From Ignavibacteria bacterium (GTDB taxonomy: Bacteria; Bacteroidota; Ignavibacteria; Tepidaquicellales; Tepidaquicellaceae): DNA of 64,000 nt. Each line of letters begins with the position of its first letter. The first letter of the stretch is position 1. The stretch covers positions 558,001-622,000 of the forward strand of contig DATAJP010000003.1 in NCBI GenBank assembly GCA_036262055.1, read 5' to 3'. The position numbers were made by a program, and so were the translations under genes. The notes beneath the pieces were generated by a model that saw only the letters and a list, made by a program, of their open reading frames with translations, was not told the DNA's origin and made no database searches. Of the stretch, positions 12,484 through 29,181 are shown in pieces.

Positions 12484-13458
12484 TTATGAAACTTTTATAA
12501 AACTTGCACCGCTAAAATGCCATTTTAAAGTTTTAGTATAAACTTCAAGCTGATTTTTATCTTCTTCGGTTGATTTACCTGTCAGCTTGTGAATCAAAAA
12601 CATTAGCGAATATTTTGCTATCCACAAAAACATATAAACATAAGTTCTCAATCTATATAAGTAATAAGTCATCAATGAGTAATGTTTTTTCAGAAACAAA
12701 TAAAAACTTTTATAATTCTGAATGAACATTTCTGCTCTTCTTTGACGCGAGCTTGATTTTCCATAATGAATAATCTCAACATCAGGCAGGAACACTGCTT
12801 TAAACCCTGCCTTCTTCACTCTCATGTAAAAATCCATCTCCTCTGCATAAATCCAGAATTTATCATCAAGCATCCCGACTTTATCTGCAACTTCACGCGT
12901 GTATAAAAGAACAGCTCCGTATGCCCAATCAATTTCACGTTCTTCATTATGGTCCCAGAACGACATAAACGCATTCTTAGTGCTGTATTTACTTAAAAAA
13001 TCTGCAAAGAATCTGTTCTCTATAAATGAACGCCATAAATTAAAAAAACTGTTCACGGATTTTTGAAGTGATAAATCATCATTCAACAGCTTGCATGTTA
13101 AAATTCCAACTCCTCTGTGTTGATTTGCAAAAATATAATCGAGCATTTTATCTATTGCGTTTTCAATAACAATCGTATCAGGATTTAACAATAAAATATT
13201 TTTTCCTTTTGCAATTTCAATTCCCTGGTTATTTGCAGGAGCAAAGCCGTTGTTTGTTTTATTTGCAATCAGTATTACTTCCGGAAATTCTTCCGCAACC
13301 ATGTCAGCTGATTTATCAGGAGAATCATTATCAACAACGATTATCTCAAAAGAATATTTCTTTGCTTCATCATAAATCGACTTCAGACAATTTCGCAATA
13401 AAGCTTTCGTATTCCAGCTTACAATAATAATCGAAACGTCAACATTCGAACCTGTCAT
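12484..13458 (-). CDS. family 2 glycosyltransferase, rhamnosyltransferase-like
   Basis: A 324-residue GT2 starting VSIIIVSWNTK, with VDNDSPDKS and a LLNPDT motif typical of the WbbL/rhamnosyltransferase branch. DWAYGAVLLY and a DEKFWIYAEEMDFYMRVKKAG-like acceptor region follow. The C-terminal third is hydrophobic and helical, suggesting membrane association. RfbA and RfbC in the same cluster make a dTDP-sugar donor such as dTDP-rhamnose plausible, but specificity is inference. Its ATG (13456-13458) abuts the stop of the 46-residue upstream peptide with no gap. Confidence 0.87.
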   Translation of the reverse strand: MTGSNVDVSIIIVSWNTKALLRNCLKSIYDEAKKYSFEIIVVDNDSPDKSADMVAEEFPEVILIANKTNNGFAPANNQGIEIAKGKNILLLNPDTIVIENAIDKMLDYIFANQHRGVGILTCKLLNDDLSLQKSVNSFFNLWRSFIENRFFADFLSKYSTKNAFMSFWDHNEEREIDWAYGAVLLYTREVADKVGMLDDKFWIYAEEMDFYMRVKKAGFKAVFLPDVEIIHYGKSSSRQRRAEMFIQNYKSFYLFLKKHYSLMTYYLYRLRTYVYMFLWIAKYSLMFLIHKLTGKSTEEDKNQLEVYTKTLKWHFSGASFIKVS

Positions 13459-13600: not shown

Positions 13601-14224
13601 TTATTTAGTCAGAACTTTTTCCCATTGTTTGGTTTCAAAATTATACTGCTTCAATAGTTTAGCTGGATTACCGCCGACAATAGAATATGGCGGGACATTT
13701 TTTGTTACCACGCTTCCGCCGGCAACAACCGAATGCTTCCCAACTGTTACACCCGCAACAATAACAGAGTTTGCGCCAATCCATGAATCATCTTCGATAA
13801 CAATCTCAGCAGTCGTAACCGGCTGGTCGAGTATTGGAACATCCGGGTTTTCATAAACATGATTCAATCCGGACAGCACAATATTTTGCGCAAACATAAT
13901 GTTATTTCCGATTTTCACAGGACCAATAATCACATTCCCCAATCCGATTCTTGTTCTGCTTCCTATTATCACATCACCGACACCATTATTCACCGTTGCG
14001 AAATCCTCTATAGTTGAATAATCTCCCAATTCAAATTTATTAAAAGGCAAAACATCGACTCGAGTCATACTGCAAATCTTCGAGCCCTTCCCTTTTTTGT
14101 GCTTAAAAGGATTTACAAACCATTTAACCCATAAGCGGGGACGCGCCTGTCCCTTAGGAATAAGCATCTTGTGAGCAAGTTTTTTCATTCCCGGATTTGA
14201 ATCTAATTTTTCCTTTAAGCCCAT
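13601..14224 (-). CDS. hexapeptide-repeat acyltransferase (WcaF/NodL-like)
   Basis: 207 residues with a left-handed beta-helix built from hexapeptide repeats: IGSRTRIGLGNVIIG, then IEDDSWIGANSVIVAG and VGKHSVVAGGSVV. The family motif IVGGNPAKLL lies near the C-terminus. The catalytic His of this fold is probably within SGLNHVYENP. Such enzymes O-acetylate or otherwise acylate sugars using acyl-CoA, and in EPS clusters they decorate repeat units. The first about 60 residues are a basic, less conserved extension. It starts one base before the end of the upstream GT4 gene and is surely in the same operon. Confidence 0.9.
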   Translation of the reverse strand: MGLKEKLDSNPGMKKLAHKMLIPKGQARPRLWVKWFVNPFKHKKGKGSKICSMTRVDVLPFNKFELGDYSTIEDFATVNNGVGDVIIGSRTRIGLGNVIIGPVKIGNNIMFAQNIVLSGLNHVYENPDVPILDQPVTTAEIVIEDDSWIGANSVIVAGVTVGKHSVVAGGSVVTKNVPPYSIVGGNPAKLLKQYNFETKQWEKVLTK

Positions 14225-14225
14225 A

Positions 14226-15443
14226 TTATTTTTTACCTCTCAATTCATACACAAGGTTAATGGCTTTGTAAATTTCCTTAACATTATTTTCCCACGTATG
14301 CGATGATGCAAACTCTCTTCGCGCTTTTCCTTTTTCTTCATTATCTTCTTTTAATGCAAGTTCAATAAGTTTTACATACTCTTCTTTTGTTTCGGCAAGA
14401 TAAGTATGGTTTGCAAAAATGCTCATTGCGACCGTTTTTGTTGCAACAGTTGGTTTTTCCATTGCAAGATATTCATCAATTTTGCGAGGATAATTTCCAA
14501 TTGTAACCTCGTTCAGTAATTGCGGATTGATGCAAACATCAAAATAATTTATATATGATGGCAGCAAGCTTCCGTCTTTCGAACCAAAAAAATGAACGTT
14601 CTTCATTCCATGTAACTCGCTGTTTAAAAATCCATCGTCTTCAGGTCCGACTAAAACAATCTGCCAATCGGGTTTTGTTTTTGCAATGTAACTCAATATA
14701 TCAATGTCTAATCTCAAAGTAAATATAGCACCGACATACCCGATTCTCGGATGCGGAATGTCTTTTAAATCCTTAGGCTCTTCCTTAATCAGATTTTTAT
14801 CAAACAAACTTAAATCGCATCCCTGCCCGACATAAAAAGAATTTTTATTAAACTGTCTGCAGTAGTCAGCAAGATAAGTCGAATTCGCAACGGCAGCATC
14901 TGATTTTTCTATTAGCTCCGCTTCAATTCTTATTCCGTGAGCTTTCCAATAATCAACAGCAATCAGATTGTCCCTGCTGTAATAAATGCTGACCTCGGGT
15001 TTCAAATATTCCTGAAAGTAAAAACTTCTGAACATATCGCTGTCATTGAACAAAATAATATTTTTAAATCCAAGCTTATCCATTGCCCGTTTAACTTCTT
15101 TAGTGAAAATTGCATTATTTCTTTTATTAAAAAAATCAAAAAGCCAGTCGAATTTTATCCAATTAATTGATTTTATTTTTTTTCTCGGATTAAATTCCCA
15201 TATATTCTCACCAACTTTTGCCAAATCTTTTTCCTGACCATCAATTATTCTTAGCCGTTTCTGAACTTTTTCATCATTCTTTCCCTTCAATACCGTTATT
15301 GTATCAAGCGGAGAATTAACATACAACACACGATTTTGCTTTGCAAACTCAAGTGCAATATTAATGCAGTTGCTGCCAATGGCATTATCCCACGCCTGAA
15401 GCCCCGTAACAACAATATCTCTTCCTTTTATTATATCGTTCAA
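14226..15443 (-). CDS. GT-B glycosyltransferase, TuaH-like
   Basis: A 405-residue GT-B fold protein. The N-terminal domain carries DIVVTGLQAWDNAIGSNC and YYSRDN, as in TuaH-like teichuronic acid transferases. The C-terminal donor domain has PRIGYVGAIF, IVLVGPED, and a late acidic motif in INPQLLNEVTIGNYPRKIDEYLAM that replaces the EX7E of GT4 enzymes. It has no membrane helices. Donor and acceptor are unknown; by context it adds one sugar to the lipid-linked repeat unit. One base separates its start side from the flippase gene. Confidence 0.85.
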   Translation of the reverse strand: MNDIIKGRDIVVTGLQAWDNAIGSNCINIALEFAKQNRVLYVNSPLDTITVLKGKNDEKVQKRLRIIDGQEKDLAKVGENIWEFNPRKKIKSINWIKFDWLFDFFNKRNNAIFTKEVKRAMDKLGFKNIILFNDSDMFRSFYFQEYLKPEVSIYYSRDNLIAVDYWKAHGIRIEAELIEKSDAAVANSTYLADYCRQFNKNSFYVGQGCDLSLFDKNLIKEEPKDLKDIPHPRIGYVGAIFTLRLDIDILSYIAKTKPDWQIVLVGPEDDGFLNSELHGMKNVHFFGSKDGSLLPSYINYFDVCINPQLLNEVTIGNYPRKIDEYLAMEKPTVATKTVAMSIFANHTYLAETKEEYVKLIELALKEDNEEKGKARREFASSHTWENNVKEIYKAINLVYELRGKK

Positions 15444-15444
15444 C

Positions 15445-16800
15445 TTAATCCTTATTGTGATTTTTTCTTTTAAAAAGTTTATTCAGCACCATATTAAAGC
15501 CATCGATATAAAATCTATACATATAAATAAATGTGTGATGCGTTTTTACTCCGATTTCTCTTTTAAGAATTATCTGATTAATAATCAAAAATATTACCAG
15601 AGCTGTGAACGTTCCGAACGCCGCACCTATTAATCCGAAATAAGAAATATATAAATAGTTCGATAAAATATTTACAAGCATTATAATTACAAGCAGAATA
15701 AAATTTACTCTCGGCTTCCCGATTGAGTCCATCACAACCCCAAATTGTCTCCCGAAAGGTTGCAACAGTGTTGCAAGAATAATTACTTGCAATATTGGAA
15801 CTGCGCTTAAATACTGTTCGCCCGCAATTATGATTATTATTTCTTTTGTAAATAAAAGAGTAACAATCGTAACGGGTAAAATCATTGCAAGTAAGAGTCC
15901 GACCGAACGTTCATATAAATAACATACCGCTTCTTTGCCGTCAGTTTCGATTCTTTTTGCACTTTGCGGGAATACAATTGCCGAAACAGACGACAACGGA
16001 ACTTCAACAAAGTTTGTTACACGCTGAGCAACATTAAACACTGCAACAGATGGAGGTCCTAATAAAATACCCAACATCATCTGGTCAACGCTTGTGTAAA
16101 TCATCGAGCTGATATTAGTTCCGAAAACATATTTACCATAATGAAATAATTTTTTCACCCAATTCCACTCTATCTTTTTTGAAATCCTGAAAAACTTTTT
16201 TACAAATGGATATGATGTTAATGTTCCAAGTAAAGCCCCCGCAGTCATAAGCCATACAATTTCTGTTAACTCAATTTGATAACCGATTATCAATGCTACT
16301 AATATTCCCGTGAAAAATAAACCCTGCCTTACAAGACTGCTGTAAAAAATTCCCTTAAAATCCAGATTCGCCTGCTGAATAAAATTAAACTGATAAAAAG
16401 GAACAAGTACTAAAGTAGTTATCACATATAAATAAAACATCGGTTCAAGCGACGGAGAGCTCCAAAGGATGCTCAAAGGTTTTGCAGCAATAAATAACCC
16501 GGCAACTAAAATCAAAGCAATTAATAAATTCAAAGAGAACGAAGCGCTCAAGATTTTCGGATACTCTTCCGGAGTTGCTGATGCGCTATACTTTATTTGA
16601 GCGTTTTGTATCAGCCCGTTCTTGCTTACCTCAATTAATGCCGTCACTGTAAGGAACAATGCATACTCCCCCATTTGTTCTTTGGGAAGCATACGCACTA
16701 AAATATAAAAACTTCCGAATCCTGTCAGCAAAGTCGTTACTCTTTGCAGAACTGTATATATTCCAGATTTCAACCAATATGAATCTTTTGCAAATGCCAT
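15445..16800 (-). CDS. Wzx-like polysaccharide flippase (MOP superfamily)
   Basis: A 451-residue protein with about 12 to 14 membrane helices and the fold pattern of the polysaccharide transporter branch (RfbX/Wzx) of the MOP superfamily. The first helix starts in GIYTVLQRVTTLLTGFGSFY and residues such as FPQSAKR between helices 6 and 7 are typical. Flippases move undecaprenyl-linked repeat units across the inner membrane to the Wzy polymerase, which is five genes downstream. The C-terminal tail is basic. It starts nine bases after the GT2-GT4 fusion stop. Confidence 0.9.
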   Translation of the reverse strand: MAFAKDSYWLKSGIYTVLQRVTTLLTGFGSFYILVRMLPKEQMGEYALFLTVTALIEVSKNGLIQNAQIKYSASATPEEYPKILSASFSLNLLIALILVAGLFIAAKPLSILWSSPSLEPMFYLYVITTLVLVPFYQFNFIQQANLDFKGIFYSSLVRQGLFFTGILVALIIGYQIELTEIVWLMTAGALLGTLTSYPFVKKFFRISKKIEWNWVKKLFHYGKYVFGTNISSMIYTSVDQMMLGILLGPPSVAVFNVAQRVTNFVEVPLSSVSAIVFPQSAKRIETDGKEAVCYLYERSVGLLLAMILPVTIVTLLFTKEIIIIIAGEQYLSAVPILQVIILATLLQPFGRQFGVVMDSIGKPRVNFILLVIIMLVNILSNYLYISYFGLIGAAFGTFTALVIFLIINQIILKREIGVKTHHTFIYMYRFYIDGFNMVLNKLFKRKNHNKD

Positions 16801-16809
16801 TAACTCTTG

Positions 16810-19143
16810 TCAAGAATTATAAATTTCATCATACGCTTCCTCATTTTTTCTGACAAGCACATTTATGTCAAATTTTTCCAAAACTGTCTTTCTTGCATTC
16901 TCACAAAACATATTAGCTAACTTTTTATCGGTATAAACTTTTAAAATACTATCAGACAAAGCACTATGATTATGCACAGGTATGGATAATCCGTTATAAT
17001 TATTTATCAATGCTTCATTAGTTCCGGGTATATCCGTAGCAATGCAGATTTTTTCCATCGACATCGCTTCAAGCAGCCCAAGCGGAATTACCTCCCACAG
17101 TGACGGCAAAACAAAAACATTAATTGCATTCAGAACAGTTTTGACATCATTCGTGAACGGCATAAACTTTAATGAATCTCCGATGTTCAATTTCTCAGCA
17201 AGCTTAATGCATTTTTCTTTTAACTCACCTTCCCCGAACATTATAAATTTTATTTCAGGATATTTCTTAATGGCTTCAGGTATTGCTTTCACAAAAGTCT
17301 CAGGGGCTTTCTGATATGTAAATCTTGCTATGAAGCATACAATAAAATCAGTTTCGTTATAGCCCAGACATTTTCGATAGCTGTTATCCGAATCAAACGG
17401 CTTATATTCTTCCGCATTTATACTGTTATATATCAACTCAAAATCTCCGTCCTCATACAAACTCTTGCCGACGTTAATATCATTATGAGAGCCGCATATT
17501 GTCAAATTTGAGTTTTTAATTAGAAACCTCTCTGAAATCTGTCTGAGTTTATATGAAAGCATATTTATCCCCGAATGGAATGAAAATCCGTGAACGGTAT
17601 ATATTCTTTTTTTTTTACTCCACATGGCAGGTATAAGTGAATTAGTTCCTGCCCGCGTTCCGTGAATATGAAGGATGTCAATGCCTTCACGTTCCAAAAT
17701 TTTTTTGACCCTGCTGTAAATAAAAAAATTAAATGGCTTAATGGTTTTAATTATAAAGGTGTTATAACCTTTTTCTTTAAGCTGATTAATCATATTACCC
17801 TCGGTAAAACTCAATATATAGGGTTCATATTTGGTTTTATCTATTTGGGTAACAAGATTGTAAAGATAGGTTTCACCTCCGCCGTAATCGCCCTGTCTTA
17901 TTGTTGCAAGTATCCTGATTTTTCCATCCATTCTGATTTTTTTATCGGCAAGCACTTCATCAATTGTTAAATATTTAGTATGGACGGTTTCCATAAATTC
18001 TTTGTTTGAACGCTTGATGCGGAAAAGTGCAAGAATCTGATTGAACATAAACAATGGAATACCCCAGATTGATTTCCATACTTGCGGTTCAACCCTGCTT
18101 AATGCAAGAACAAAGAAAATATTCAACACGAATACTGTAAATGCTCCCGCAAAAATTAAAAAGAAATCAAAATTTAAAAAGAAATTTAGTGCCGTGAAAA
18201 AAAATGTCATCAATATCAAAATGAATAATGGCGGTATGAGGGTGCTTAAACCAAAATACATCTTGTTCCAGTTAAGGCTGAACAGACCTTTCAGCATTAT
18301 GCTTGCGGCAGTTTTTGCATAAAGAAAATAAGAATTAATCCATCGTGTTCTTTGTCTTTCCACCTGTGACGCCGTTGAAACTTTTTCATCATAAACAATT
18401 GCATCACGCGCAAACGCAATAATGTTTCCGTCTTCAACCAAATCCGCCTGAAGAATTTTATCCTCCGCAACTATTACTCCGCCCTTGGCGTTTTCTTCTT
18501 CAAGCTTTCTCAGATTATTGAGATAGAGTTCCGTTTCAATTGTCATTCCCGAGCCTGCAATCGTAGCTGACGAGCGAATTTTATATGGCAAATATTTCAC
18601 AAGATAATTATAGTAATATTCACTCATTGCATCGAGACATGCATAAATCGAATCTAAATTTTTTGGAGCTCTTCGTCCCTGCACTGCTTTATATCCGTTG
18701 TTCAGAAATTTGTTGGTAACTCCTAAAAATTTCGGGTGGGCAAGATTATCAGGATCAAAAATCGTTACATACTGATGCTGTCTTTTGAAGTTATCAATAG
18801 CATAAAGAATAGATTTAATCTTCGAACCAAGCTTGGATTCTGGTTTAAGAACAACGACTCTTTCATCATCAAATTTCAGCTTAGATACGTCGCATTCATC
18901 TGCGACAAGATATATCAGATAATTATCATAGTTTTGCTTGAGTAATGAATCGACTAAAGGAAGTGTTATTTCGGTTTCTTTATAGGCAGTAATGATTAAA
19001 CCAAAGTCAAATTTTTGATTTATTTTGTTTTTTAAGCGCGGCTTTCTAAATAACAGAGATAGTATGACACTGAGGAAAGGGAATAATAAAAAAAATAGAA
19101 TTAAAATCTGGACAGCATAAAATAAAACGGAGAGAACCCCCAT
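16810..19143 (-). CDS. GT2-GT4 two-domain glycosyltransferase fusion
   Basis: 777 residues containing two complete glycosyltransferases. Residues 1-400 are a membrane GT2: an N-terminal helix, FGLIITAYKE, metal motif FDPDN, AEDKILQADL, a QRTRW motif, then two or three membrane helices near 290-360. Residues from about 404 start a second Rossmann fold (RILATIRQGDYGGGETY) typical of GT4, with HIHGTRAG, FIARFTYQKAP and the EX7E motif in SLWEVIPLGLLEAM. One gene thus likely provides two successive additions. The reading frame is continuous, with no sign of a sequencing join. Gap to the Wzc-like gene is 22 bases. Confidence 0.9.
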   Translation of the reverse strand: MGVLSVLFYAVQILILFFLLFPFLSVILSLLFRKPRLKNKINQKFDFGLIITAYKETEITLPLVDSLLKQNYDNYLIYLVADECDVSKLKFDDERVVVLKPESKLGSKIKSILYAIDNFKRQHQYVTIFDPDNLAHPKFLGVTNKFLNNGYKAVQGRRAPKNLDSIYACLDAMSEYYYNYLVKYLPYKIRSSATIAGSGMTIETELYLNNLRKLEEENAKGGVIVAEDKILQADLVEDGNIIAFARDAIVYDEKVSTASQVERQRTRWINSYFLYAKTAASIMLKGLFSLNWNKMYFGLSTLIPPLFILILMTFFFTALNFFLNFDFFLIFAGAFTVFVLNIFFVLALSRVEPQVWKSIWGIPLFMFNQILALFRIKRSNKEFMETVHTKYLTIDEVLADKKIRMDGKIRILATIRQGDYGGGETYLYNLVTQIDKTKYEPYILSFTEGNMINQLKEKGYNTFIIKTIKPFNFFIYSRVKKILEREGIDILHIHGTRAGTNSLIPAMWSKKKRIYTVHGFSFHSGINMLSYKLRQISERFLIKNSNLTICGSHNDINVGKSLYEDGDFELIYNSINAEEYKPFDSDNSYRKCLGYNETDFIVCFIARFTYQKAPETFVKAIPEAIKKYPEIKFIMFGEGELKEKCIKLAEKLNIGDSLKFMPFTNDVKTVLNAINVFVLPSLWEVIPLGLLEAMSMEKICIATDIPGTNEALINNYNGLSIPVHNHSALSDSILKVYTDKKLANMFCENARKTVLEKFDINVLVRKNEEAYDEIYNS

Positions 19144-19165: not shown

Positions 19166-21445
19166 TTAAGAGACGGATGTATCCTTCAACTTCTTTTTAG
19201 AAAGGTTTCTTTTGATGATGCTTTTAGTAACCCTTCTTGCCCAGCTTCGTTTCTTGTAAAAATCCCCGTAAATTTCTTCAATATATTCAGTCGATAAATT
19301 ATTCAAAATTGCCCCGATGAATTTAGGATCCATTGAATTAAGAATTTCAATTGAGTTTTTATCCGACTCTTCAATGACATTATTTGCAGAGAATACTGAG
19401 ATTACTGCATCGGAAATATTCGAGAGCTCTTTTGAATCAGAATATTTATTTAATGCCGCACCTTCCATAAAAACTATGTCATAACCTTTAGCAAGCTCAT
19501 GAATCTTTTTATTTAGATTATCGATTCCTCCAATTTCATCCGGAGAATATGAACCTCCCTTGCTGCCTGCAATATCGATATTTCCCATTGTTGTTCTTGA
19601 AATCACTTTATCTGCGGGTAAAGTTTCTTCAAGATATTCTTCAAACACAGGTGAAGCATTAAAGCTTGAGGTCAACGAAGGATGAGAGAAATTTGTATCA
19701 ATTAATAATACTCTTTTATTAATCAGCGCCAGAGAGTATGCAAGACAGGAAATTATAAGAGATTTGCCTGCACCTTTTTCGGTGCTTGTTACAAGAATTA
19801 TTCTTTTGCCATTCAATTTTTTCAGTATTTCAAATCTCAATGACCTCAATAACTGTTTAAACAATTCCGAATCTCCGTCAAGTTCTCTGTCACTAAATAA
19901 CTCTCTTAAATTTATCTGAGATTTTTTAAGACGGTTCAAAGTTCCAAGAAGTTCAATATTCGTAAGCTTGAGAAAATGCGCAGGACTTTTTATTGTCTGG
20001 TCTAAATATTCGATTACGAAAATTAAAATTACCGTCATTAAAAGACTAACTACTCCAGCAAGTATAACCGTAAGCATCTTTTTTGATGCTTCCGGCTTAT
20101 TTGCCGGTTCGCCGTATTCGGTTTGCTTTAATGAATTTCCAAGATTCATTGTATCGAATCTTGAAAGATTGAGACGGTTCAAAACCATTAGATATACATC
20201 TGATGCAACCTGAATCTCTCTTTCATATGCAGCTATTTCGGCTTCCTTAGGGGCGTAACTTTGAACCTGAGCATCCAACCTTGCAAGTTCTTTGTCCATC
20301 GACTTGGTGCTGTATCTTGCAATTTCCAGATCAACTTCATATCCTATTCTTCGAGTTACAAGTTCATTCTTTGAGGTGTTAGGGTCGAGCAGAAAATCAT
20401 CAGCACCGCTTACAATTTCAACCTCAAGCTGTTTTTTGGTTGCTTCAATTTCATCCTTTAGTGCCTGGTTAGTATATCCCTGAGTAATTAAATCATCGGT
20501 TAGTCTTTTAATCTTATCTTTAAGTTCAACGATTCGCGCATTATACGTTCTTGAGTTTGCTTCGTAATATAATTTATCTTTATTTGTAAATTTATTATTA
20601 ATTAATTTTATTGCTTCCTGAAGAGCAGGAATTTTTTTGTTTTCCTCTTCCCTTGCAATTTCAAGCTCTGCCTTCTGGTCAACTAATGATTTTGTCTGTT
20701 CATAAAGATTGATAACCCCATTCGCCATTTTGTACCTTTTCAGTTCATCGACTTTTTCATCAAGTTCTTTTTTCTTTTGCTCGGATAAATCCGCAAAGAA
20801 ATTAATAGTTGCATCACTTTTTACTGCAGTTAATTGCTTATAATATCTTATAAACTCTGTAACTTCCTCGTTTACTACATAAGCAGACAGGTCAGGGTTT
20901 TCGGATTCAAATTCAATTTTAATAAAATCGCTTGTTCCTTCCCTGTTTATTTTTAATTTGTTATACAATGCAGAATAATCATACTTCATGCTTTCAAGAA
21001 GCGCAATAATTCCTCTTTCATCTTCAATAGCATTTGTCAGGGAAGCCATTGAATCAATTTTTTCATTTAAAATTCTGATAACATTATTCTTTGCTTCCTG
21101 ATTTAAAGTCTGCATTAACTTGCTCGGCTCGCGGAATGGAGGAGAGCTGGTTAAATCATGCCGCAATAATTTGTAACCAACTAAATCAACAACTTTTTTT
21201 GAGTTCATCAACTCAATCAAGTTGCCGAATTTATTCTGAATGTCGAATTGCTGTATTGCCTGACCTTCTGTTGTAAGAGAGAGTTTTGTCTCGTCTGTTA
21301 TGCCTGTTGAAAGCTGAGCAGACGACTTATAAACATCAGGAAGATTTTTTACAAGAAGATATGTTATGATTACTGCAATTGACGGCAGAACAATCAACAA
21401 TAGCTTTCTTCTCAATAAAACTTTTATGAAGTGTATTAAATCCAT
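19166..21445 (-). CDS. Wzc-like chain-length regulator with tyrosine-kinase-like domain
   Basis: 759 residues. The Wzz-type region has a first membrane helix near 14-32, long coiled coils through the periplasmic part, and a second helix near 455-478. The cytosolic ATPase has a Walker A (STEKGAGKS) near 555 and a Walker A-prime (LLIDTNF). In place of the usual Walker B Asp it has FMEGAA, and there is no dense Tyr tail, only three tyrosines in TEYIEEIYGDFY. Wzc-like proteins set polymer length and couple it to export by autophosphorylation cycles. The atypical ATPase may mean weak or absent kinase activity. Its start overlaps the TolC-like stop by one base. Confidence 0.88.
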   Translation of the reverse strand: MDLIHFIKVLLRRKLLLIVLPSIAVIITYLLVKNLPDVYKSSAQLSTGITDETKLSLTTEGQAIQQFDIQNKFGNLIELMNSKKVVDLVGYKLLRHDLTSSPPFREPSKLMQTLNQEAKNNVIRILNEKIDSMASLTNAIEDERGIIALLESMKYDYSALYNKLKINREGTSDFIKIEFESENPDLSAYVVNEEVTEFIRYYKQLTAVKSDATINFFADLSEQKKKELDEKVDELKRYKMANGVINLYEQTKSLVDQKAELEIAREEENKKIPALQEAIKLINNKFTNKDKLYYEANSRTYNARIVELKDKIKRLTDDLITQGYTNQALKDEIEATKKQLEVEIVSGADDFLLDPNTSKNELVTRRIGYEVDLEIARYSTKSMDKELARLDAQVQSYAPKEAEIAAYEREIQVASDVYLMVLNRLNLSRFDTMNLGNSLKQTEYGEPANKPEASKKMLTVILAGVVSLLMTVILIFVIEYLDQTIKSPAHFLKLTNIELLGTLNRLKKSQINLRELFSDRELDGDSELFKQLLRSLRFEILKKLNGKRIILVTSTEKGAGKSLIISCLAYSLALINKRVLLIDTNFSHPSLTSSFNASPVFEEYLEETLPADKVISRTTMGNIDIAGSKGGSYSPDEIGGIDNLNKKIHELAKGYDIVFMEGAALNKYSDSKELSNISDAVISVFSANNVIEESDKNSIEILNSMDPKFIGAILNNLSTEYIEEIYGDFYKKRSWARRVTKSIIKRNLSKKKLKDTSVS

Positions 21446-22137
21446 TATTTAAATATTTCCTCCCATTGTTTGCCTAAAATTTCTTCGAGTGCAGCTTTAC
21501 TCGAATACATTTCCGAAAGCGATACAATCTGCTTTTCCTGGCTGTCTGTATATGCGGTTAATGCAGAATTATATTGTTCAAGTGTTACCTCGCCGTTTTC
21601 ATATCTGTATCTCACAAGCACTAATGACGATTGCACGTCATTCATAGCATCCGTTCTGATTCTGAGCATCGAAATATTTTGTTTAAATACCCAATACCTT
21701 TGAATTACTTGGGTTCTTATGTATAATCTATGAGTCATTAAATTCGCATCTGCAATTTTTACTTCTTCCTCAGACTGTCTTATCACACTCGGAACTCTGA
21801 AAAGCATTCCAAGATTTACCGTTAAACCGACCCCGAATCTCTGTGATTTATCCTGTGAATTTGTTGTTGTGCTTGTTACGCTCGGATCAAAAAGATACGC
21901 AAAGTTAATTGCATCCAGCCATGACCATTTTGATTGATGAAGTTCTTCCTCCGCCTGAACTTTTTTACTCCTGTATGTCTGCGGCATAGGGTTATTTAGC
22001 CATGCAATATTAACAAGGTAAGCAACGGTATCTGTGATAGGTGGATTTGGGGGAATGATTTTATTGGTATCCAATTGAGAAAATGCGGTATTTGCACAAA
22101 ACAAAAAAACAATAAAGACAGTAAAGTAAAACTTCAT
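21445..22137 (-). CDS. half-length TolC-like outer-membrane protein
   Basis: A 230-residue exported protein: signal peptide about 1-20 (cleavage after AFS), a Pro-rich stretch, and then the TolC-type pattern of two long amphipathic helices flanking beta strands (GVGLTVNLGMLFRV, then EEVKIADANLM and VLVRYRYENGEVTLEQYN). TolC proteins normally have two such repeats in 420-480 residues; this has one. It sits directly upstream of the Wzc-like gene, and no Wza-type polysaccharide export gene is present in the window, so it may form the outer-membrane exit from more subunits than a TolC trimer. That role is inference. Confidence 0.8.
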   Translation of the reverse strand: MKFYFTVFIVFLFCANTAFSQLDTNKIIPPNPPITDTVAYLVNIAWLNNPMPQTYRSKKVQAEEELHQSKWSWLDAINFAYLFDPSVTSTTTNSQDKSQRFGVGLTVNLGMLFRVPSVIRQSEEEVKIADANLMTHRLYIRTQVIQRYWVFKQNISMLRIRTDAMNDVQSSLVLVRYRYENGEVTLEQYNSALTAYTDSQEKQIVSLSEMYSSKAALEEILGKQWEEIFK

Positions 22138-22169: not shown

Positions 22170-23495
22170 TTACAATTGAGCGTTTCTGCCGATACTGTAA
22201 TAAGTAAAGCCGGCTTCCTTCATTTTTTCAGGAGCAAAAATGTTTCTTCCGTCAAATATCAACGGTGACTTTAAATCTCTTTTAACATCTTCCAAATCGG
22301 GATTCCTGAATTCATTCCATTCTGTCAATATTAATAAAGCATCTGCATTCTTTAAAGCATCCATTTCGTTATCCATATATTTTATTGTATCTTTCAGATA
22401 AAACTTTGCAGTTTCATTCGCCGCAGGGTCATACGCAGAAATCGTTGCGCCATTCTTTAAAAGCTCATTTATAATAACTACTGAAGGAGCTTCTCTCATG
22501 TCATCTGTATTGGGTTTAAACGCAAGTCCCCACACTGCAAAATGTTTTCCTTTGATGTTGCCGTTGTAATACTTCATTATTTTTTCAACAAGAACCTGTT
22601 TCTGTTTTTTATTTACCTTATCAACTTCAGTCAGCAATGTCATCTCGGAATCATTTTCCATCGATGTTTTTATTAAAGCATTAACATCTTTAGGGAAACA
22701 AGAACCGCCATAACCGATTCCTGCGAACAAAAACCTTTTACCAATACGATTGTCCGCACCCATTCCTTTTCTTATGAGGTCTATGTTTGCACCTGTCTGT
22801 TCACAAAAATTAGCAAGCTGATTCATAAATGTAATTCTCATCGCGAGATATGAATTTGCTGCATACTTTGTTACCTCCGAGCTTGCGGTATCCATTTCAA
22901 TTATTGGATTCCCCTGACGGACAAACGGCTCATATAACTCTTTCATTATTGAAAGAGCTTTTTTATCACTGCTTCCGATTACGATTCTGTCCGGCTTCAT
23001 AAAATCCTCAACAGCATAACCTTCTCTCAAAAACTCCGGATTAGATACAATCGCAAAGTTATTAATTCCGTGCTTGCTTATTTCACCGGCAACCTTGCCT
23101 GCTGTTCCAACAGGAACAGTGCTTTTATTAACTATTACTTTAAAATCTTTAATTTTTTCATCAGCCATTATCTTTCCGATGTCATCGGCTACTTTCATAA
23201 CATATTGCAAATCAGCCGAACCGTCTTCACCTTGCGGGGTCGGCAAACAAAGAAAAATAACCTCGCATTCCTTGACAGCTTTCTTAAGGTCATCAGAAAA
23301 GGTTAACCTTTTCTTTTCTATGTTTCTATGAAACAAAAGCTCAAGTCCGGGCTCATATATTGTAACTTCTGAGTTTCTTAGCTTCTTTAGTTTTTCTGGC
23401 GAGTTATCAATGCACAAGACCTGATTACCCATTTCTGCAAAGCAAGTTCCGGATACTAACCCGACATATCCGGTTCCAATAATTCCTAAATTCAT
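22170..23495 (-). CDS. ugd: UDP-glucose 6-dehydrogenase
   Basis: 441 residues with the GTGYVGLVSG NAD-binding motif at the N-terminus, VNKSTVPVGTA, NPEFLREG and the catalytic Cys266 in GGSCFPKD, then a C-terminal UDP-binding domain (WGLAFKPNTDDMREAPS). The enzyme oxidises UDP-glucose to UDP-glucuronate with two NAD. All key residues are present. The product can be used directly by the EPS transferases or passed to the UDP-xylose synthase at 2.3 kb. A TATTTTTG motif lies 28 bases before the ATG, so the distal part of the cluster may have its own promoter. Confidence 0.96.
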   Translation of the reverse strand: MNLGIIGTGYVGLVSGTCFAEMGNQVLCIDNSPEKLKKLRNSEVTIYEPGLELLFHRNIEKKRLTFSDDLKKAVKECEVIFLCLPTPQGEDGSADLQYVMKVADDIGKIMADEKIKDFKVIVNKSTVPVGTAGKVAGEISKHGINNFAIVSNPEFLREGYAVEDFMKPDRIVIGSSDKKALSIMKELYEPFVRQGNPIIEMDTASSEVTKYAANSYLAMRITFMNQLANFCEQTGANIDLIRKGMGADNRIGKRFLFAGIGYGGSCFPKDVNALIKTSMENDSEMTLLTEVDKVNKKQKQVLVEKIMKYYNGNIKGKHFAVWGLAFKPNTDDMREAPSVVIINELLKNGATISAYDPAANETAKFYLKDTIKYMDNEMDALKNADALLILTEWNEFRNPDLEDVKRDLKSPLIFDGRNIFAPEKMKEAGFTYYSIGRNAQL

Positions 23496-23550: not shown

Positions 23551-24102
23551 TCAGTTAAAATAAAAATCTTTTTCTATTTCTTTGAATTTTTTTGATTCAG
23601 AATCTTTCTTTGAAAGATTTAATGCTTCAACTTTCCAATCAATGTTCAAATCTTCATCGTTGAAAATTATGCTTCGTTCATCTTTCTTACTGTAATATGC
23701 TGTGCATTTGTACATAAAAATTGCCTCATCGGATAAAACTGAAAACCCATGAGCAAATCCTTTTGGTATCCAGATTTGTTTATGATTTTCTTCATTCAAT
23801 TCTATTGCATAATGCTGTCCGAATGTCGGAGAACCGAATCTTATATCAACCGCAACGTCAAGCACTCTTCCGAGCAGCACCTGGCAAAGCTTTCCTTGCG
23901 CATTTTCGCCGATTTGGTAGTGTAAACCCCGTATTGTTCCTTTCGTTGACTTTGAAATGTTATCCTGAATAAATTTTTCATTCATCCCTGCTTCGCTATA
24001 TTTTTTCTCGGAATAACTTTCGAAGAAAAATCCTCTGTTATCATTGAAAACATCCGGTTCAATTATCAAAACATCTTTTAAGTTCGTTTCGATTATTTTC
24101 AT
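23551..24102 (-). CDS. rfbC: dTDP-4-dehydrorhamnose 3,5-epimerase-like protein
   Basis: 183 residues with the RmlC cupin fold: DNRGFFFESYSEKKY, the TIRGLHYQ motif holding the active-site His, DVAVDIRFGSPTFG, and IPKGFAHGFSVL. Length equals the family norm. RmlC epimerises C3 and C5 of dTDP-4-keto-6-deoxyglucose on the route to dTDP-rhamnose. The 4,6-dehydratase (RfbB) and 4-reductase (RfbD) genes are not in this window, so the final sugar is not certain. Its ATG overlaps the rfbA stop by one base. Confidence 0.93.
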   Translation of the reverse strand: MKIIETNLKDVLIIEPDVFNDNRGFFFESYSEKKYSEAGMNEKFIQDNISKSTKGTIRGLHYQIGENAQGKLCQVLLGRVLDVAVDIRFGSPTFGQHYAIELNEENHKQIWIPKGFAHGFSVLSDEAIFMYKCTAYYSKKDERSIIFNDEDLNIDWKVEALNLSKKDSESKKFKEIEKDFYFN

Positions 24103-24968
24103 TAACCAACATCATTTAAAAATTTTTCAAGATAAGACCTGTATAAAGAATTTGGCATGCCGGCAATTAATTTTTCAAGCTGTGTTCTATCAATAAAATT
24201 ATTTCTGTAAGCAATTTCTTCAAGGCATGCGACTTTTAAACCCTGCCTGTCCTCAATGACACCGAAGAAATTCGATGCCGCAAGCAATGATTGAGGCGTC
24301 CCCGTATCGAGCCATGCTAATCCTCTTCCGATTTTTTCAACCCGAAGCATTTTTCTTTTCATGTATTCCTTATTCACGTCAGTAATTTCAAGTTCTCCGC
24401 GAGCAGATGGTTTCAGACTTTTAGTAATTTCAACAACATCATTATTATAAATATATAAACCCGGCACTGCGTAATGTGATTTTGGCTTTTCTGGTTTCTC
24501 TTCTATTGAAATTACGTTTCCTTCCTTATCAAATTCAACTATGCCGTATCTCTCCGGGTCATTGACCTGATAACCAAATATTGTAGCACCATGATTATTC
24601 TTCAACGCATGATAAAAGAAATCCAGCCGTCCATAAAAAATATTGTCTCCCAAAATCAAAGTTACACTGTCATACCCGATGAATTTTTCTCCAAGAATAA
24701 ATGCTTCAGCAATTCCATTTGGTGCATCCTGAACTGCATAGCTGATTGATATTCCCAAATGCTTCCCGTTGTCAAAAAGTTTCTCATATAAGGGAATGGT
24801 TTCTTTATTAGAAATGATAAGTATGTCAGTAATTCCTGCAAGCATCAAAATCGACAATGGATAATAAATCAACGGTTTGTCATAAATTAATGTTAATTGC
24901 TTACTGTAAATTTTTGAAACAGGATACATCCTCGAACCTGCTCCTCCTGCAAGCACAATTCCTTTCAT
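24102..24968 (-). CDS. rfbA: glucose-1-phosphate thymidylyltransferase
   Basis: 288 residues with the nucleotidyltransferase signature GGAGSRMYPVSKIYSKQL, LGDNIFYG, EEKPEKPKSH, and the C-terminal GRGLAWLDTGTP. This is the RmlA/RfbA pattern: dTTP plus glucose-1-phosphate gives dTDP-glucose. All metal and substrate motifs are intact. It is flanked by the nucleotidyltransferase fusion upstream (overlap one base) and rfbC downstream. Confidence 0.95.
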   Translation of the reverse strand: MKGIVLAGGAGSRMYPVSKIYSKQLTLIYDKPLIYYPLSILMLAGITDILIISNKETIPLYEKLFDNGKHLGISISYAVQDAPNGIAEAFILGEKFIGYDSVTLILGDNIFYGRLDFFYHALKNNHGATIFGYQVNDPERYGIVEFDKEGNVISIEEKPEKPKSHYAVPGLYIYNNDVVEITKSLKPSARGELEITDVNKEYMKRKMLRVEKIGRGLAWLDTGTPQSLLAASNFFGVIEDRQGLKVACLEEIAYRNNFIDRTQLEKLIAGMPNSLYRSYLEKFLNDVG

Positions 24969-26776
24969 TAAATTGCTCCCTCTCTCTTCACAACAGATTT
25001 AAATGTTTCGAATAATACTTTTAAATAACCTTTATATGTTTTAAACTCACCATACTCCCCGAGATATTCCTTATCCTTATAATCAATATTTTCCATTACG
25101 GACTGCATTGTATCGTGCAATGCTCTTTCTTCTGCAGTGAGATTTGAACGCCCTCTTGCCTGCCAGAATCCTGCCAAGCCAAGCTTACCCTGAAACCGCA
25201 CCTGCGCGGTATCTGATAAATCAAGTTCCCCGTCGCCTTCGGAAGTTTTTAAACCTTTAATTAATAATTCATCTGCTTCATAAGTCGGTAATGCCCAGAT
25301 TCCGACTAAACTCATTTGCCCTTTAAGAACATTCCAGAATAGCGGCAATTCATCAATAGATGTTTTTCGTAAAAACCTTCCTACCTTTGTAACTCTGGGA
25401 TCATTTTCTATTTTTCTGAACGGACCTGAATCATATTTATTTTTTAAATCTGCAATTCTCTTGTCCGCATCGGTGTACATTGTCCTGAATACATAATATT
25501 TCACCGGCTTTTCTTTGAAGAAAACATACCAGTGGCTTCCTTTTTTTTCTATCTCAGGAGATTTTAATCTTTTTGAGACATAAAAAACCGGACCCTTTGA
25601 ATCAAGTTTAATTAAAATTGCGACAATCAGAAACAAAGGAGACAAAATCAAAAGCATAAAAAATGCCACTACTCTGTCGGTTGCATTAATCAAAAATAAA
25701 TTGATTTTTGTCTTTGTCGGGACAATGTAATGCGACATTAAGACTTTGTCATCATCAATGAATACACCAAAATTATTTGGGATGCTTAAATGATAATTCT
25801 GATTAACGACAGATTCTTTCAGCTCAACATCTTTACCTACATAAGTATTACTTAAGATTACCGACTCCTGAATTTTTGCTTTTTCATCTATGCACACTTC
25901 ATCACCAATTACTAACGGACCGACCAGCTCAACGCCATCGCGTATCTCACAATTCTTGCCGATTAAAACGCTTCCCTTTGCGTTTTCATAAACTCTTCTG
26001 TTTATTTTTGTCGAAGGGTCAATTTTTATGTTTCCCTTAACCGTAAAGTCATCGAACCCATATCCCGGCACTTTTCCTGAAACAGCATCGAGATTCACTT
26101 TCCAATACTCGCTTAAACTTCCTATGTCGCTCCATATGCAATCCGTCGGATAAGCATAAAATGGTGTATTTAATTCAAGCAATTTCGGAAAAAGTTGATA
26201 ACCAAAATCGTATTCAACTTTTGGAGGAATTAAACCAATAATTTCAGGCTCGAGTATGTAAATTCCTGTGTTAATTAAATTTGATTTTGCTTCCTCTTTC
26301 TTTGGTTTTTCCTGAAAACTTATTATTTTATTTTCCTTATCCGTAACAACTACACCAAATTTTGAAGGGTCATCGACTTTTTTTGTAGCAATAGTAACTT
26401 TGGCTTTTTTCTCGCGATGAAACTTCAGCATCTCTGTTAAATCAATATTCGTGAAACCGTCACCGCTTAAAATCACAAATGTCTCATCAAAAAAACTTTC
26501 TGTTCTTTTTATTGCTCCTGCAGTTCCAAGCAATTTTTTCTCAATAGAATATGAAATATCTACGCCGAATTCTTTTCCGTCTTTAAAATATTTATCGATT
26601 GCCTCAGGAAGATAAAAAAGATTAATTTTTATTTTGGAAATATTATGTCTTTTGCAGAGATTAATAATATGCTCTAATGCGGGCTTGTTAACTATCGGAA
26701 GCATTGGCTTGGGGATGGTCAAAGTCAGTGGCACTAATCTTGAACCGATTCCTGCAGCTAGTATGAATGCTTTCAT
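24968..26776 (-). CDS. sugar nucleotidyltransferase fused to EPS-initiating phosphoglycosyltransferase
   Basis: 602 residues in three parts. Residues 1-235 are a sugar-1-phosphate nucleotidyltransferase (LAAGIGSRLVPLT, SGDGFTNIDL, EKPKKEE). About 245-345 is a short left-handed beta-helix (NCEIRDGVELVGPLVIGDEV). From about 358 a membrane-entering helix leads into a bacterial sugar transferase (polyprenol-phosphate phosphoglycosyltransferase) with FRTMYTD, the catalytic Asp-Glu pair in TSIDELPLFWNVLKGQMSLVG, and GLAGFWQARGRS. The usual PRP after SLVG is replaced by IWA. Such enzymes transfer phospho-sugar from a nucleotide-sugar to undecaprenyl phosphate, the first step of repeat-unit assembly. 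The fusion would let one protein make and use its donor. The start overlaps the RsbW-like stop by four bases. Confidence 0.92.
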   Translation of the reverse strand: MKAFILAAGIGSRLVPLTLTIPKPMLPIVNKPALEHIINLCKRHNISKIKINLFYLPEAIDKYFKDGKEFGVDISYSIEKKLLGTAGAIKRTESFFDETFVILSGDGFTNIDLTEMLKFHREKKAKVTIATKKVDDPSKFGVVVTDKENKIISFQEKPKKEEAKSNLINTGIYILEPEIIGLIPPKVEYDFGYQLFPKLLELNTPFYAYPTDCIWSDIGSLSEYWKVNLDAVSGKVPGYGFDDFTVKGNIKIDPSTKINRRVYENAKGSVLIGKNCEIRDGVELVGPLVIGDEVCIDEKAKIQESVILSNTYVGKDVELKESVVNQNYHLSIPNNFGVFIDDDKVLMSHYIVPTKTKINLFLINATDRVVAFFMLLILSPLFLIVAILIKLDSKGPVFYVSKRLKSPEIEKKGSHWYVFFKEKPVKYYVFRTMYTDADKRIADLKNKYDSGPFRKIENDPRVTKVGRFLRKTSIDELPLFWNVLKGQMSLVGIWALPTYEADELLIKGLKTSEGDGELDLSDTAQVRFQGKLGLAGFWQARGRSNLTAEERALHDTMQSVMENIDYKDKEYLGEYGEFKTYKGYLKVLFETFKSVVKREGAI

Positions 26777-27348
26777 ATAAAGTCTTTAACGCTTTTCTTT
26801 AACAAAAAGGTATCAACACCTTCATTTGTTCTTTTATATGAAAAATGTTTTGAAAGCGATGTTATCAGTAAAATGCCGTAATGTTCCGGAATATTGTCAA
26901 GTGATTCTTCTTCAGAGTTAACTTTTTTATGGAAAAAAAATAACTCTTTTTCACCAAGCACTTTGCACAACACCTGATTTTCAGGGTCGTTATATAAAAT
27001 AAATTCTTTACCGTGAATTTTTTGGGGATAAGGAGGGTAATAATTATCTATTTCTTCTCCGCTTGTACTTTTGACGGGTTTAATCATAAATCCTTTACCT
27101 TTCATCTCCATCTCGATTATCATATGCTCATCTTCAAGTCCGTAAGTAACTTTTATGTTATCGGTATATCCGTGGAGAACACAATTGGAAAAAAGTTCAT
27201 ACATTATCAGCTTCACATCATTCATAAAATCAGCTTCCAGTTTCTTGTTTCCGAAGGTGATTATTGACCTTGCAAAGGATTCGGTAACATCGCTTACGAA
27301 ATGCACATTGTCTATTGATGACGGAACGTATAGAATAATTTTATCCAT
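26773..27348 (-). CDS. RsbW-like HATPase (anti-sigma/serine kinase family) with atypical ATP site
   Basis: 191 residues with a GHKL ATPase fold as in RsbW/SpoIIAB. The N box is intact: Glu51, Asn55 and His59 in ELFSNCVLHGY. The G1 box, normally DxGxG, reads MKGKG at 82-86, so the adenine-binding Asp is missing, and the expected G2 glycines are reduced to HYGILL near 160. There is an insert of about 60 residues between the boxes. In the family these proteins bind and phosphorylate a STAS partner and sequester a target. The STAS gene lies 21 bases upstream and a PP2C phosphatase two genes further, so the partner-switching set is complete. Kinase activity is doubtful; a binding-only role is possible. 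Confidence 0.8.
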   Translation of the reverse strand: MDKIILYVPSSIDNVHFVSDVTESFARSIITFGNKKLEADFMNDVKLIMYELFSNCVLHGYTDNIKVTYGLEDEHMIIEMEMKGKGFMIKPVKSTSGEEIDNYYPPYPQKIHGKEFILYNDPENQVLCKVLGEKELFFFHKKVNSEEESLDNIPEHYGILLITSLSKHFSYKRTNEGVDTFLLKKSVKDFI

Positions 27349-27369
27349 CAGTAGTAGTTAGGATTATGC

Positions 27370-27708
27370 TTAGAAACTGTTTATTGCATCCTGTTTATTA
27401 TCAAAAATCTCAAACACTTTATATAATCTTGTCAATTCAAACATAGCTCTCACAGGCGCTTGTAACTCAACAACTTTTATGTCTCCTTTTATTGCAGTTA
27501 CTTTTTTTAAGCCGGAGACAACAGCTCCGAGAAATGAACTGTCAACAAATTCAACGTTTGATAGGTCAAGAATTATTTTTTTCTTCTGGTCGTTATCAAT
27601 AAGATTAAACAAGAAGTTTTTAAAATCTTTAACTACGTCAACCGTTGCCCTTTTAAGATTTACCTTGATAATGGTTACTCCATTTTCTTCGGTAACTTCA
27701 TAATTCAT
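27370..27708 (-). CDS. STAS-domain anti-anti-sigma factor-like protein
   Basis: 112 residues forming a single STAS domain as in RsbV/SpoIIAA. The segment IILDLSNVEFVDSSFLGAV holds the expected phosphorylation site, Ser57 after Asp56, in the usual loop. Unphosphorylated STAS partners bind the RsbW-like kinase and free its target; the PP2C phosphatase resets them. It is placed between a GT2 and the RsbW-like gene. It has the clearest Shine-Dalgarno in the region (AAGGAG, five bases before ATG), which suggests a higher translation rate than its neighbours, as is common for the stoichiometric partner. Confidence 0.92.
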   Translation of the reverse strand: MNYEVTEENGVTIIKVNLKRATVDVVKDFKNFLFNLIDNDQKKKIILDLSNVEFVDSSFLGAVVSGLKKVTAIKGDIKVVELQAPVRAMFELTRLYKVFEIFDNKQDAINSF

Positions 27709-27713
27709 TGAAT

Positions 27714-27719
27714 CTCCTT
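27714..27719 (-). promoter_or_regulatory. strong Shine-Dalgarno of the STAS gene
   Basis: AAGGAG on the minus strand, five bases before the STAS ATG. Most genes in this window lack such a motif, so it stands out as possibly setting the expression ratio of the STAS protein to its kinase partner. Confidence 0.65.
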
Positions 27720-27741
27720 TTTGATTTTATTTATTGTAAGC

Positions 27742-29178
27742 TTAAACTCTTTGGACTTTTTCCCACACAACGTTCTGTCTGCCTTTTTTATATCTCATAA
27801 AACCTGCAATTGCCGCAACGTTCATCATTGTCAGCACAAAAGGCAGATAAAAAACTTTGATCTTAATTCTTCTTTGTTCCAGAAAATATCCTATAAGTGC
27901 CAGTGCATAAAATACTATTTGAAGCAATAAAATATAAGTATAAAATAAAGAATTATTAAACGTAAGAATGACATTGATTAAAAAAATAATCGGCAGCAGA
28001 AATGGAACAACCGCCCATCTCAGAACACGATGAGAGATATATTCAAACGAAAGCACTCCGAACTTAAAAGGATTAAGTAATGGTCTTAACCAGTTAATAG
28101 ACTGAAATCCCCCCGCAGCAATTCTAACACGACGTTTATATTCTGATTGAACATTCAAAGTCGGGTCTTCCTCTGCATAAGCATCCGGTTCATATACAAC
28201 TCTATAACCGCGTTCGGCAATCTGCATGGATAAAACAAAATCCTCGATGATTGCATTATGCTGAGCTCCTTCTCCCCAAAGTTCTTTTCTGACCGCAAAA
28301 ATTTCTCCCGCTGCGCCGACTGCGGAATAAACATCGGAGTCCATTTTTTTCAAGTAAGATTCGTATTTCCAATACAATCCTTCGCCTTCACCGCTCGTTG
28401 ATTTCTCGTTAGTCTTAACTCTCTTTTCACCTGCAACACAGCCGACAGACTTATCTCTGAAATGTCTTGTGAGATTTGTTAAAGATTCTTTATTGAACAT
28501 CGAATTTGCATCGGAGAAAACAAAAATCTCACCCGTTGCAGTTTTTACAGTCCGGTTAACCTGCGAAATTTTTCCTTTGCGTTCGATGTCTTTTGTTACA
28601 AACACACGCAGTTCATTTTCAGATTCACCTTTGAACATACTATCCATCTTTGATTTTGCCCCGGGGGTTATTCCTTCAGAAGAAAATTCAGACATTTCAA
28701 GTTTTTTTGTCAGCTCATCGAGATATTTTTCTTTCGATTTTATATCTGCTTCATCAAACTGCATAAAGTGAACATATAGCTCTTCATCCTTTGATGTAAT
28801 ATCCTTAAAATTTATTTCCTCAAGGAAATTGTCATAATATTCATTTATTGTTTCATCATTTATATCACCTTGCTCAAATGCAACTGCGAAAATTACTTCG
28901 AGCTTGTCTTTTGGATAATCAAGATTATATGTATTAATAATTTTCTCTCGGATAATTTCGCTTGTTTCACCCGATGCGGAAATTATCATACTGACAGTCG
29001 GATAATATTCCTCGTTTTCAGAAACAAGAAATTCCTGTTTAATTGAATTATACGGTTTAGGAAGAATTTTTTTAAGAAAGGAAACTTTTGAAATGAGAGT
29101 TATTAGAATTCCATAACCTATGTAAGAATAAAAAACTATGATAAGAAAAAACCAGAATAGAATTTCTAATATAATCAC
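27742..29178 (-). CDS. membrane family 2 glycosyltransferase
   Basis: 478 residues: an N-terminal membrane helix (about 3-28), a cytosolic GT2 domain and two or three helices near 385-455. The GT-A domain has VSMIISASGE, the FSDANSMF metal motif, EDFVLSMQIAERG and a YKRRVRIAAGG region in place of the QxxRW of processive enzymes. An unusually acidic insert near 115-200 (KDITSKDEELYV onward) separates the first strands from the DxN motif. It starts three bases after the phosphatase stop, so it is co-transcribed with the partner-switching genes. The sugar is unknown. Confidence 0.87.
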   Translation of the reverse strand: MIILEILFWFFLIIVFYSYIGYGILITLISKVSFLKKILPKPYNSIKQEFLVSENEEYYPTVSMIISASGETSEIIREKIINTYNLDYPKDKLEVIFAVAFEQGDINDETINEYYDNFLEEINFKDITSKDEELYVHFMQFDEADIKSKEKYLDELTKKLEMSEFSSEGITPGAKSKMDSMFKGESENELRVFVTKDIERKGKISQVNRTVKTATGEIFVFSDANSMFNKESLTNLTRHFRDKSVGCVAGEKRVKTNEKSTSGEGEGLYWKYESYLKKMDSDVYSAVGAAGEIFAVRKELWGEGAQHNAIIEDFVLSMQIAERGYRVVYEPDAYAEEDPTLNVQSEYKRRVRIAAGGFQSINWLRPLLNPFKFGVLSFEYISHRVLRWAVVPFLLPIIFLINVILTFNNSLFYTYILLLQIVFYALALIGYFLEQRRIKIKVFYLPFVLTMMNVAAIAGFMRYKKGRQNVVWEKVQRV

Positions 29179-29181
29179 TAT

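Follow-up and report, generated by a model that had tools for sequence, protein, structure and literature searches.

The gene at positions 21445-22137 (minus strand) of a 64,000-nucleotide stretch of DNA from an Ignavibacteria bacterium (contig C3, 558001-622000; hereafter the window) encodes a TolC-like protein of half the usual length. It lies directly upstream of a Wzc-like gene, in a locus from about 9236 to 30750 that has parts of a Wzx/Wzy-type polysaccharide system. We consider it likely that this half-length protein is an outer membrane factor (OMF) with a single repeat, which serves as the polysaccharide outlet in the place of Wza. This idea is well supported by the genome evidence that carries it, namely a conserved half length, a close association with one subfamily of Wzc-like proteins, and loci without a Wza-type gene.

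The half-length gene is an intact open reading frame (ORF) that starts with ATG and encodes 230 amino acids. As the original prediction stated, the protein contains one TolC-type repeat. Residues 42-222 gave a single and complete match to PF02321 (OEP), covering positions 5-187 of the 187 positions of the profile (E = 8.6e-19; 68.5 bits against a cut-off of 22), while the score for TIGR01844 was 30.7 bits, far under the cut-off of 225 bits. The N-terminus ahead of the repeat is hydrophobic and signal-like, and a Pfam scan detected neither a Poly_export nor an SLBB domain in the protein. The predicted one-base overlap with the Wzc-like gene was confirmed: base 21445 is shared by the stop codon of the half-length gene and the ATG of the wzc-like gene, as TAATG. 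Read by eye, like this overlap, a Shine-Dalgarno-like stretch for wzc (GGGAGGAA; 21457-21464, minus strand) is present in the final codons before the stop of the half-length gene. Comparison of two close relatives by the Nei-Gojobori method gave a ratio of nonsynonymous to synonymous substitution rates (dN/dS) of about 0.03 for the half-length gene, at a saturated dS.

Half length is the rule among the homologues. An initial scan of the collection with the single half-length protein gave no matches. With this protein as the only query, strong homologues were found in 7 of 59 genomes (its own included), in frames of 230-249 codons, and the weaker matches (E >= 4.3e-6) were all located in frames of at least 409 codons. 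A profile of seven sequences had matches at E <= 3.6e-51 in 13 of 391 genomes of the class, where the frames measured 224-326 codons. Leaving aside a contig-start fragment in genome G005, the matches next in rank (E >= 3.2e-17) came from frames of 419-462 codons. When nine sequences made up the profile, all 22 matches in 395 genomes of the phylum (E <= 1e-20) fell in frames of 227-326 codons, three of these 22 genomes also belonging to the class set. The cuts between the half-length family and other proteins were placed at the visible gap in the scores, after the scores were known. Among the matches listed for 15 related genomes, the only other OEP frames of less than 300 codons were one at a contig start in G005 and a pair in G004, which are adjacent pieces on one contig. 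Full-length homologues that would expose the protein as a truncated copy, a concern raised with the original prediction, were looked for and none were found. All strong homologues are half-length and carry one repeat per chain, so that they depart from the two-repeat definition of OMFs. Those with titles come from metagenome assemblies of Ignavibacteria, Bacteroidetes and Balneolia. In the titles and abstract openings of open-licence papers, we found no published half-length TolC in a polysaccharide locus.

We compared the surroundings of 35 half-length genes. The class panel supplied most of a first set of 16, and the phylum panel a second set of 19. A wzc-like gene adjoins 29 of the 35 and is present within 8 kb of 33. 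In the first set, the wzc-like gene was the next gene in all 16 cases, at a spacing of -4 to +6 bp. In the phylum set, 13 of the 19 genes abut a wzc-like gene (-1 to +15 bp), and another four (in G531, G428, G396 and G685) have one in the same locus at a distance of at most 8 kb. Moreover, the subfamily of Wzc-like proteins had the same distribution as the half-length family, both across the 59 genomes (the same seven genomes, E <= 1.7e-201; next genome 1.2e-29) and across the 391 genomes (the same 13 genomes, E <= 2.1e-261; next genome 3.6e-70). For this subfamily, the cut was set post hoc at the gap in the scores; moreover, genomes that are related do not provide independent samples. The half-length gene occupies the position of a gene for an outer membrane polysaccharide export (OPX) protein, next to a gene for a polysaccharide co-polymerase (PCP) in a Wzx/Wzy locus.

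The Wzc-like partner (19166-21445, minus strand; 759 amino acids) appears to be a co-polymerase with a fused kinase-like domain; it lacks a tyrosine-rich tail. It matched the Wzz domain PF02706 at 1.4e-5 (25.7 bits against a cut-off of 25.5) and the NCBIfam model eps_fam at 2.7e-18, which is under the cut-off of that family. A structural model with a predicted local distance difference test (pLDDT) of 79.0 and a predicted template modelling score (pTM) of 0.40 had structures of Wzc and Wza-Wzc as its best Foldseek matches (8.4e-24). The partner combines the Wzz domain and the fused kinase-like domain by which PCP-2a proteins are defined. We compared 14 partner sequences, 13 from the class genomes or their panel mates plus L048. 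All 14 have only 0-2 tyrosines in the last 35 residues and all retain the Walker A lysine; nine partners from the wider set have 0-3 tyrosines in the same region. In contrast, four of four other Wzc proteins from three of the same genomes have 9-10 tyrosines there; the window's own genome encodes two Wzc proteins besides the partner, both with tyrosine-rich tails (9 and 10). In Walker B, glutamate was found by pattern in 12 of the 14 partners and by eye in L031, while L048 has aspartate. The patterns were our own; they missed Walker B of L031 (YDLVMMEGAAL), and several sequences were unmatched at Walker A'. The function of these motifs is described in PMC12004946. The lack of a tyrosine-rich tail and, in most relatives, glutamate in place of aspartate in Walker B distinguish the partners from the remaining Wzc proteins in their genomes.

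AlphaFold2, run with nine sequences, modelled the half-length protein with a pLDDT of 80.7 and a pTM of 0.58. The model consists of a helix (51-76), two strands (77-83 and 101-107), a 72-residue helix (109-180) and a final helix (186-221). PMC8277102 describes each repeat of an OMF protomer as a pair of transmembrane strands, a single long helix and two in-line helices. At middling confidence, the predicted fold of the half-length protein is one complete OMF repeat. Its best Foldseek matches in the PDB were OMFs (among them OprM, TolC, VceC, SilC and CusC), with a best value of 2.0e-4, template modelling scores by query of 0.47-0.59 and root-mean-square deviations of 7-12 Å. Searching for PDB relatives with the single sequence yielded none of note, and a profile search matched OMFs weakly (best 0.00041). 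VIA-align added little, since OMFs and helical proteins unrelated to them received similar Z scores. In the alignment of the 35 half-length sequences, both strands show an alternation of hydrophobic columns with small or polar columns, and the glycine at the H3/H4 tip is retained in 33 sequences. The barrel of OMFs such as TolC has 12 strands, contributed by three chains with two repeats each. The strand pattern of the half-length family fits a closed 12-stranded outer membrane barrel of this type, as far as sequence can indicate.

The window contains no Wza-type gene, as had been noted before: the only Poly_export match of the genome lies on contig C1, and no SLBB match was found anywhere on contig C3. 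According to Pfam, there is no OPX protein, SLBB protein, periplasmic adaptor or pump among the 21 presumed gene products at 3291-30750. The same applies more widely. In none of 32 genomes was a Poly_export gene located within 100 kb of the half-length gene, counting positions on the same contig only, and hence Wza is not part of these loci. Three of the 13 class genomes (G003, G351 and G363, which are 97, 100 and 98% complete) had no Poly_export match at all. All 13 class genomes have SLBB matches, but only in G198, which consists of a single contig, does one share a contig with the half-length gene, and there the two are more than 500 kb apart. The search of the rest of the genome that had been proposed did reveal one Wza-like gene; it lies in another locus, together with a co-polymerase of its own. 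The encoded protein has 570 amino acids and three SLBB stretches, its gene lies beside that of a 380-amino-acid Wzz-type co-polymerase, and by eye the ORFs after this pair resemble Wzy, Wzx and glycosyltransferases. This Wza-like gene belongs to a separate polysaccharide system. Unlike in the half-length loci, of 11 Poly_export genes inspected in 10 of these class genomes, nine adjoin their own co-polymerase gene, one is one gene away from it and one is interrupted by a contig end.

Two other proteins encoded next to Wzc genes in the window's own genome were observed. A secreted-looking protein of 173 amino acids with one SLBB and no Poly_export domain is encoded directly upstream of another Wzc gene (L120:12164-12685, on contig C2 at about 962 kb; also L124:11170-11691), and a 173-amino-acid ORF occupies the same place in G198. 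It is possibly a minimal OPX protein. Upstream of the third Wzc gene of the genome (L121:11955-12662, on contig C2 at about 169 kb), a 235-amino-acid protein without a Pfam match resembles a small beta-barrel by eye.

The originally predicted outlet role stands in part. It is favoured by the conserved single repeat, the pairing with wzc and the absence of Wza from the loci of 32 genomes, whereas the Wza-like gene in a separate locus of the genome may count against it. Several other observations weigh on the same negative side. Poly_export genes are present elsewhere in 10 of the 13 class genomes and in all 19 wider genomes, SLBB proteins are present in all 13 class genomes, and these proteins could act in trans. 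The genome also encodes five full-length OMFs as possible partners. No wzc gene was found in the 20 kb taken from G501, where the half-length gene has Wzy-like and Wzx-like neighbours, and the half-length gene of G419 is without polysaccharide genes in the 19 kb taken. Finally, the pTM is 0.58, and superpositions on OMFs deviate by 7-12 Å.

The most serious alternative, which we consider unlikely, is that an OPX/Wza or SLBB protein encoded elsewhere forms the real exit, and that the half-length protein acts in the periplasm as an accessory of the Wzc complex, such as a sleeve, adaptor or assembly factor. The presence of Poly_export in 29 of the 32 genomes and of SLBB proteins in every class genome would allow this. 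However, three nearly or fully complete genomes are without any Poly_export match, the Wza-like gene of the own genome sits in a separate locus with its 380-amino-acid co-polymerase, and the half-length protein retains a beta-hairpin of the membrane type. It is quite improbable that a separate Wzp-like beta-barrel is the exit, for instance the 300-amino-acid protein encoded at 3854-4756, with the half-length protein as a periplasmic tunnel only. Myxococcus Wzp porins do act in this way together with short OPX proteins, according to PMC9603273, and a relative of the 300-amino-acid protein is encoded close to the locus of G003 as well as in the vicinity of the half-length gene of G399. Yet no relative was seen in the stretches beside the loci of G006, G018, G238, G198 and G351, and the neighbouring 1411-amino-acid protein has a secretion tail, so that the barrel may serve that cargo instead. 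Slightly less probable again are mixed channels of the half-length protein with full-length TolC, or a function in efflux unrelated to polysaccharide. The five full-length OMFs of the genome would be available as partners, and Sinorhizobium meliloti reportedly requires a full-length TolC to secrete exopolysaccharide (PMC2912261); but about 413 kb separate the half-length gene from the nearest full-length OMF on its contig, Pfam detected no adaptor gene in the locus, and the half-length gene is strictly paired with one Wzc subfamily. A truncated, frameshifted or decaying TolC gene, suggested by nothing but the length in comparison with OMFs of 472 +/- 30 amino acids (PMC4827864), is excluded as the origin of the short ORF for practical purposes, since half length is conserved among the homologues, length and gene order are alike in 35 genes, the gene is under purifying selection, and a second repeat would not fit before wzc.

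By profile score, the single repeat of the half-length family is closer to the C-terminal than to the N-terminal repeat of full-length OMFs from the class. In 15 of 15 full-length hits from the class (L060-L074), the half-length profile scored the C-terminal repeat far above the N-terminal repeat (48-65 bits versus at most 16.3 bits). Contrasts were small or scores weak for OMFs of the own genome (L006, 21.9 bits for the N-terminal and 21.1 bits for the C-terminal repeat; L005, 2.8 and 24.9 bits). A tree of 56 repeats was built without the full-length hits L068 and L072 and without 15 of the 35 half-length genes. It united the half-length group in a single clade (100/98), which fell towards the C-terminal repeats (80/84). 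An alternative tree with the C-terminal repeats as one clade was not rejected (approximately unbiased test, p = 0.267). The scores favour loss of the N-terminal repeat as a possible origin of the family, while the tree is compatible both with such a loss and with an older one-repeat state.

If the half-length protein is the outlet, the Wzx protein would flip lipid-linked repeats, which the Wzy protein would polymerise under the tail-less Wzc-like co-polymerase. The chain would then leave the periplasmic cage of Wzc and enter a homo-oligomeric ring formed by half-length subunits, and this ring would provide the conduit through both periplasm and outer membrane, the role of Wza (OPX) in E. coli. 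With two transmembrane strands and a helical hairpin from each subunit, it would take six copies to restore the 12-stranded barrel and the helical tunnel. We infer outer membrane insertion, ring size, docking on Wzc and polysaccharide as cargo; a ring of six copies, deduced from the 12-stranded OMF barrel, is probable, at a lower grade than the outlet role itself. The ring may also have another size, with eight copies, for instance, in keeping with the Wzc octamer. A more daring version, which we regard as doubtful, is an exit free of both adaptor and Wza. In this version, the one-repeat OMF, no longer tied to three chains with two repeats each, would dock directly on a Wzc of the tail-less, pseudokinase type; its ring might be an octamer instead of a TolC-like hexamer, with a wider, 16-stranded barrel that matches the Wzc octamer. 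A half-length outlet would be another route of polysaccharide across the outer membrane, beside Wza and Wzp. It would also connect the families of TolC and Wzc, and its natural one-repeat TolC fold would allow tests of ring size and of how the TolC duplication arose. PMC9603273 raises polysaccharide exit without a membrane-spanning Wza as an open question, and a survey based on OPX genes, as described there, would miss the half-length loci.

All genes of the locus described below are on the minus strand. Upstream of the half-length gene lie genes for a UDP-glucose/GDP-mannose dehydrogenase (22170-23495; PF03721, 1.2e-60), a dTDP-sugar epimerase (23551-24102; PF00908, 8.9e-71), a nucleotidyltransferase (24102-24968; PF00483, 5.7e-66) and a nucleotidyltransferase fused to an initiating sugar transferase (24968-26776; PF00483, 3.4e-55, and PF02397, 3.3e-36). 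They are followed by Pfam-assigned genes for an HATPase_c_2 protein (26773-27348), a STAS protein (27370-27708), a glycosyltransferase (27742-29178) and a response-regulator/SpoIIE phosphatase (29182-30750). The STAS, HATPase and response-regulator/SpoIIE genes within 26773-30750 look like a partner-switching set, and are neighbours of the locus in several other genomes. On the other side of wzc, Pfam indicates a fused glycosyltransferase of 777 amino acids (16810-19143) with a family-2-type and a group-1-type domain, which are encoded by two neighbouring genes in G238, G198 and G351. Next come genes for a Wzx-type flippase (15445-16800; PF13440, 1.1e-23), a glycosyltransferase (14226-15443; PF13692, 1.2e-8), a hexapeptide acyltransferase-like protein (13601-14224; PF00132, 3.2e-12), a family 2 glycosyltransferase (12484-13458; PF00535, 6.8e-22), a candidate Wzy-type polymerase with a Wzy_C domain (10976-12478; PF04932, 2.9e-13) and two more family 2 glycosyltransferases (9236-10105 and 10126-10965; PF00535, 5.5e-25 and 3.6e-24).

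Beyond these genes, the region at 3854-8988 encodes the 1411-amino-acid protein, with matches to DUF4842 and beta-propellers, and the barrel-like 300-amino-acid protein, which has no clear family. The secretion tail of the former is weak and under the cut-off. The two genes are also found together close to the locus of G003, and beside the half-length gene and wzc in G399. In sister loci, a protein of 812-828 amino acids was tried as a Wza-like candidate and rejected, because Pfam identified it as a carbohydrate phosphorylase. Its gene is part of the polysaccharide loci of G018, G006 and G011 (L032, L033 and L035), and absent from the locus of the window. The nucleotidyltransferase gene of G003 (L031:7105-8018) consists of two overlapping frames, which points to a frameshift or an assembly error.

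Compared with known systems, the half-length protein shares with OMFs (TolC, OprM, CusC; PF02321, TIGR01844) the beta-hairpin, the long helix and the in-line helix pair. However, OMFs have two repeats in 472 +/- 30 amino acids (PMC4827864), whereas the half-length protein has one repeat in 230 amino acids, and its gene adjoins a Wzc gene rather than an adaptor or pump gene. It has the OMF fold without the two repeats, and hence is not a plain member of the OMFs. With Wza and other OPX proteins (Poly_export PF02563, SLBB), it has in common the position beside a Wzc-type co-polymerase and the proposed role, but it differs in its unrelated fold and has neither Poly_export nor SLBB. The Myxococcus Wzp porins are likewise a proposed exit where Wza cannot span the outer membrane. 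According to PMC9603273, Wzp is an 18-stranded barrel that works with an OPX protein, whereas here we propose an OMF-type barrel of several subunits in a locus without an OPX gene. The Wzc-like partner is similar to the PCP-2 protein with a bacterial tyrosine (BY) pseudokinase, EcpK/EpsV, in that it lacks a tyrosine-rich tail and has a Lys/Arg-rich C-terminus (PMC12004946). By analogy, these two features make it resemble the phosphorylation-independent PCP-2 type of EcpK. In contrast to EcpK, which lacks the Walker motifs, the Wzc-like partner keeps the Walker A lysine, and unlike EcpK/EpsV it combines the co-polymerase and the kinase-like domain in one chain.

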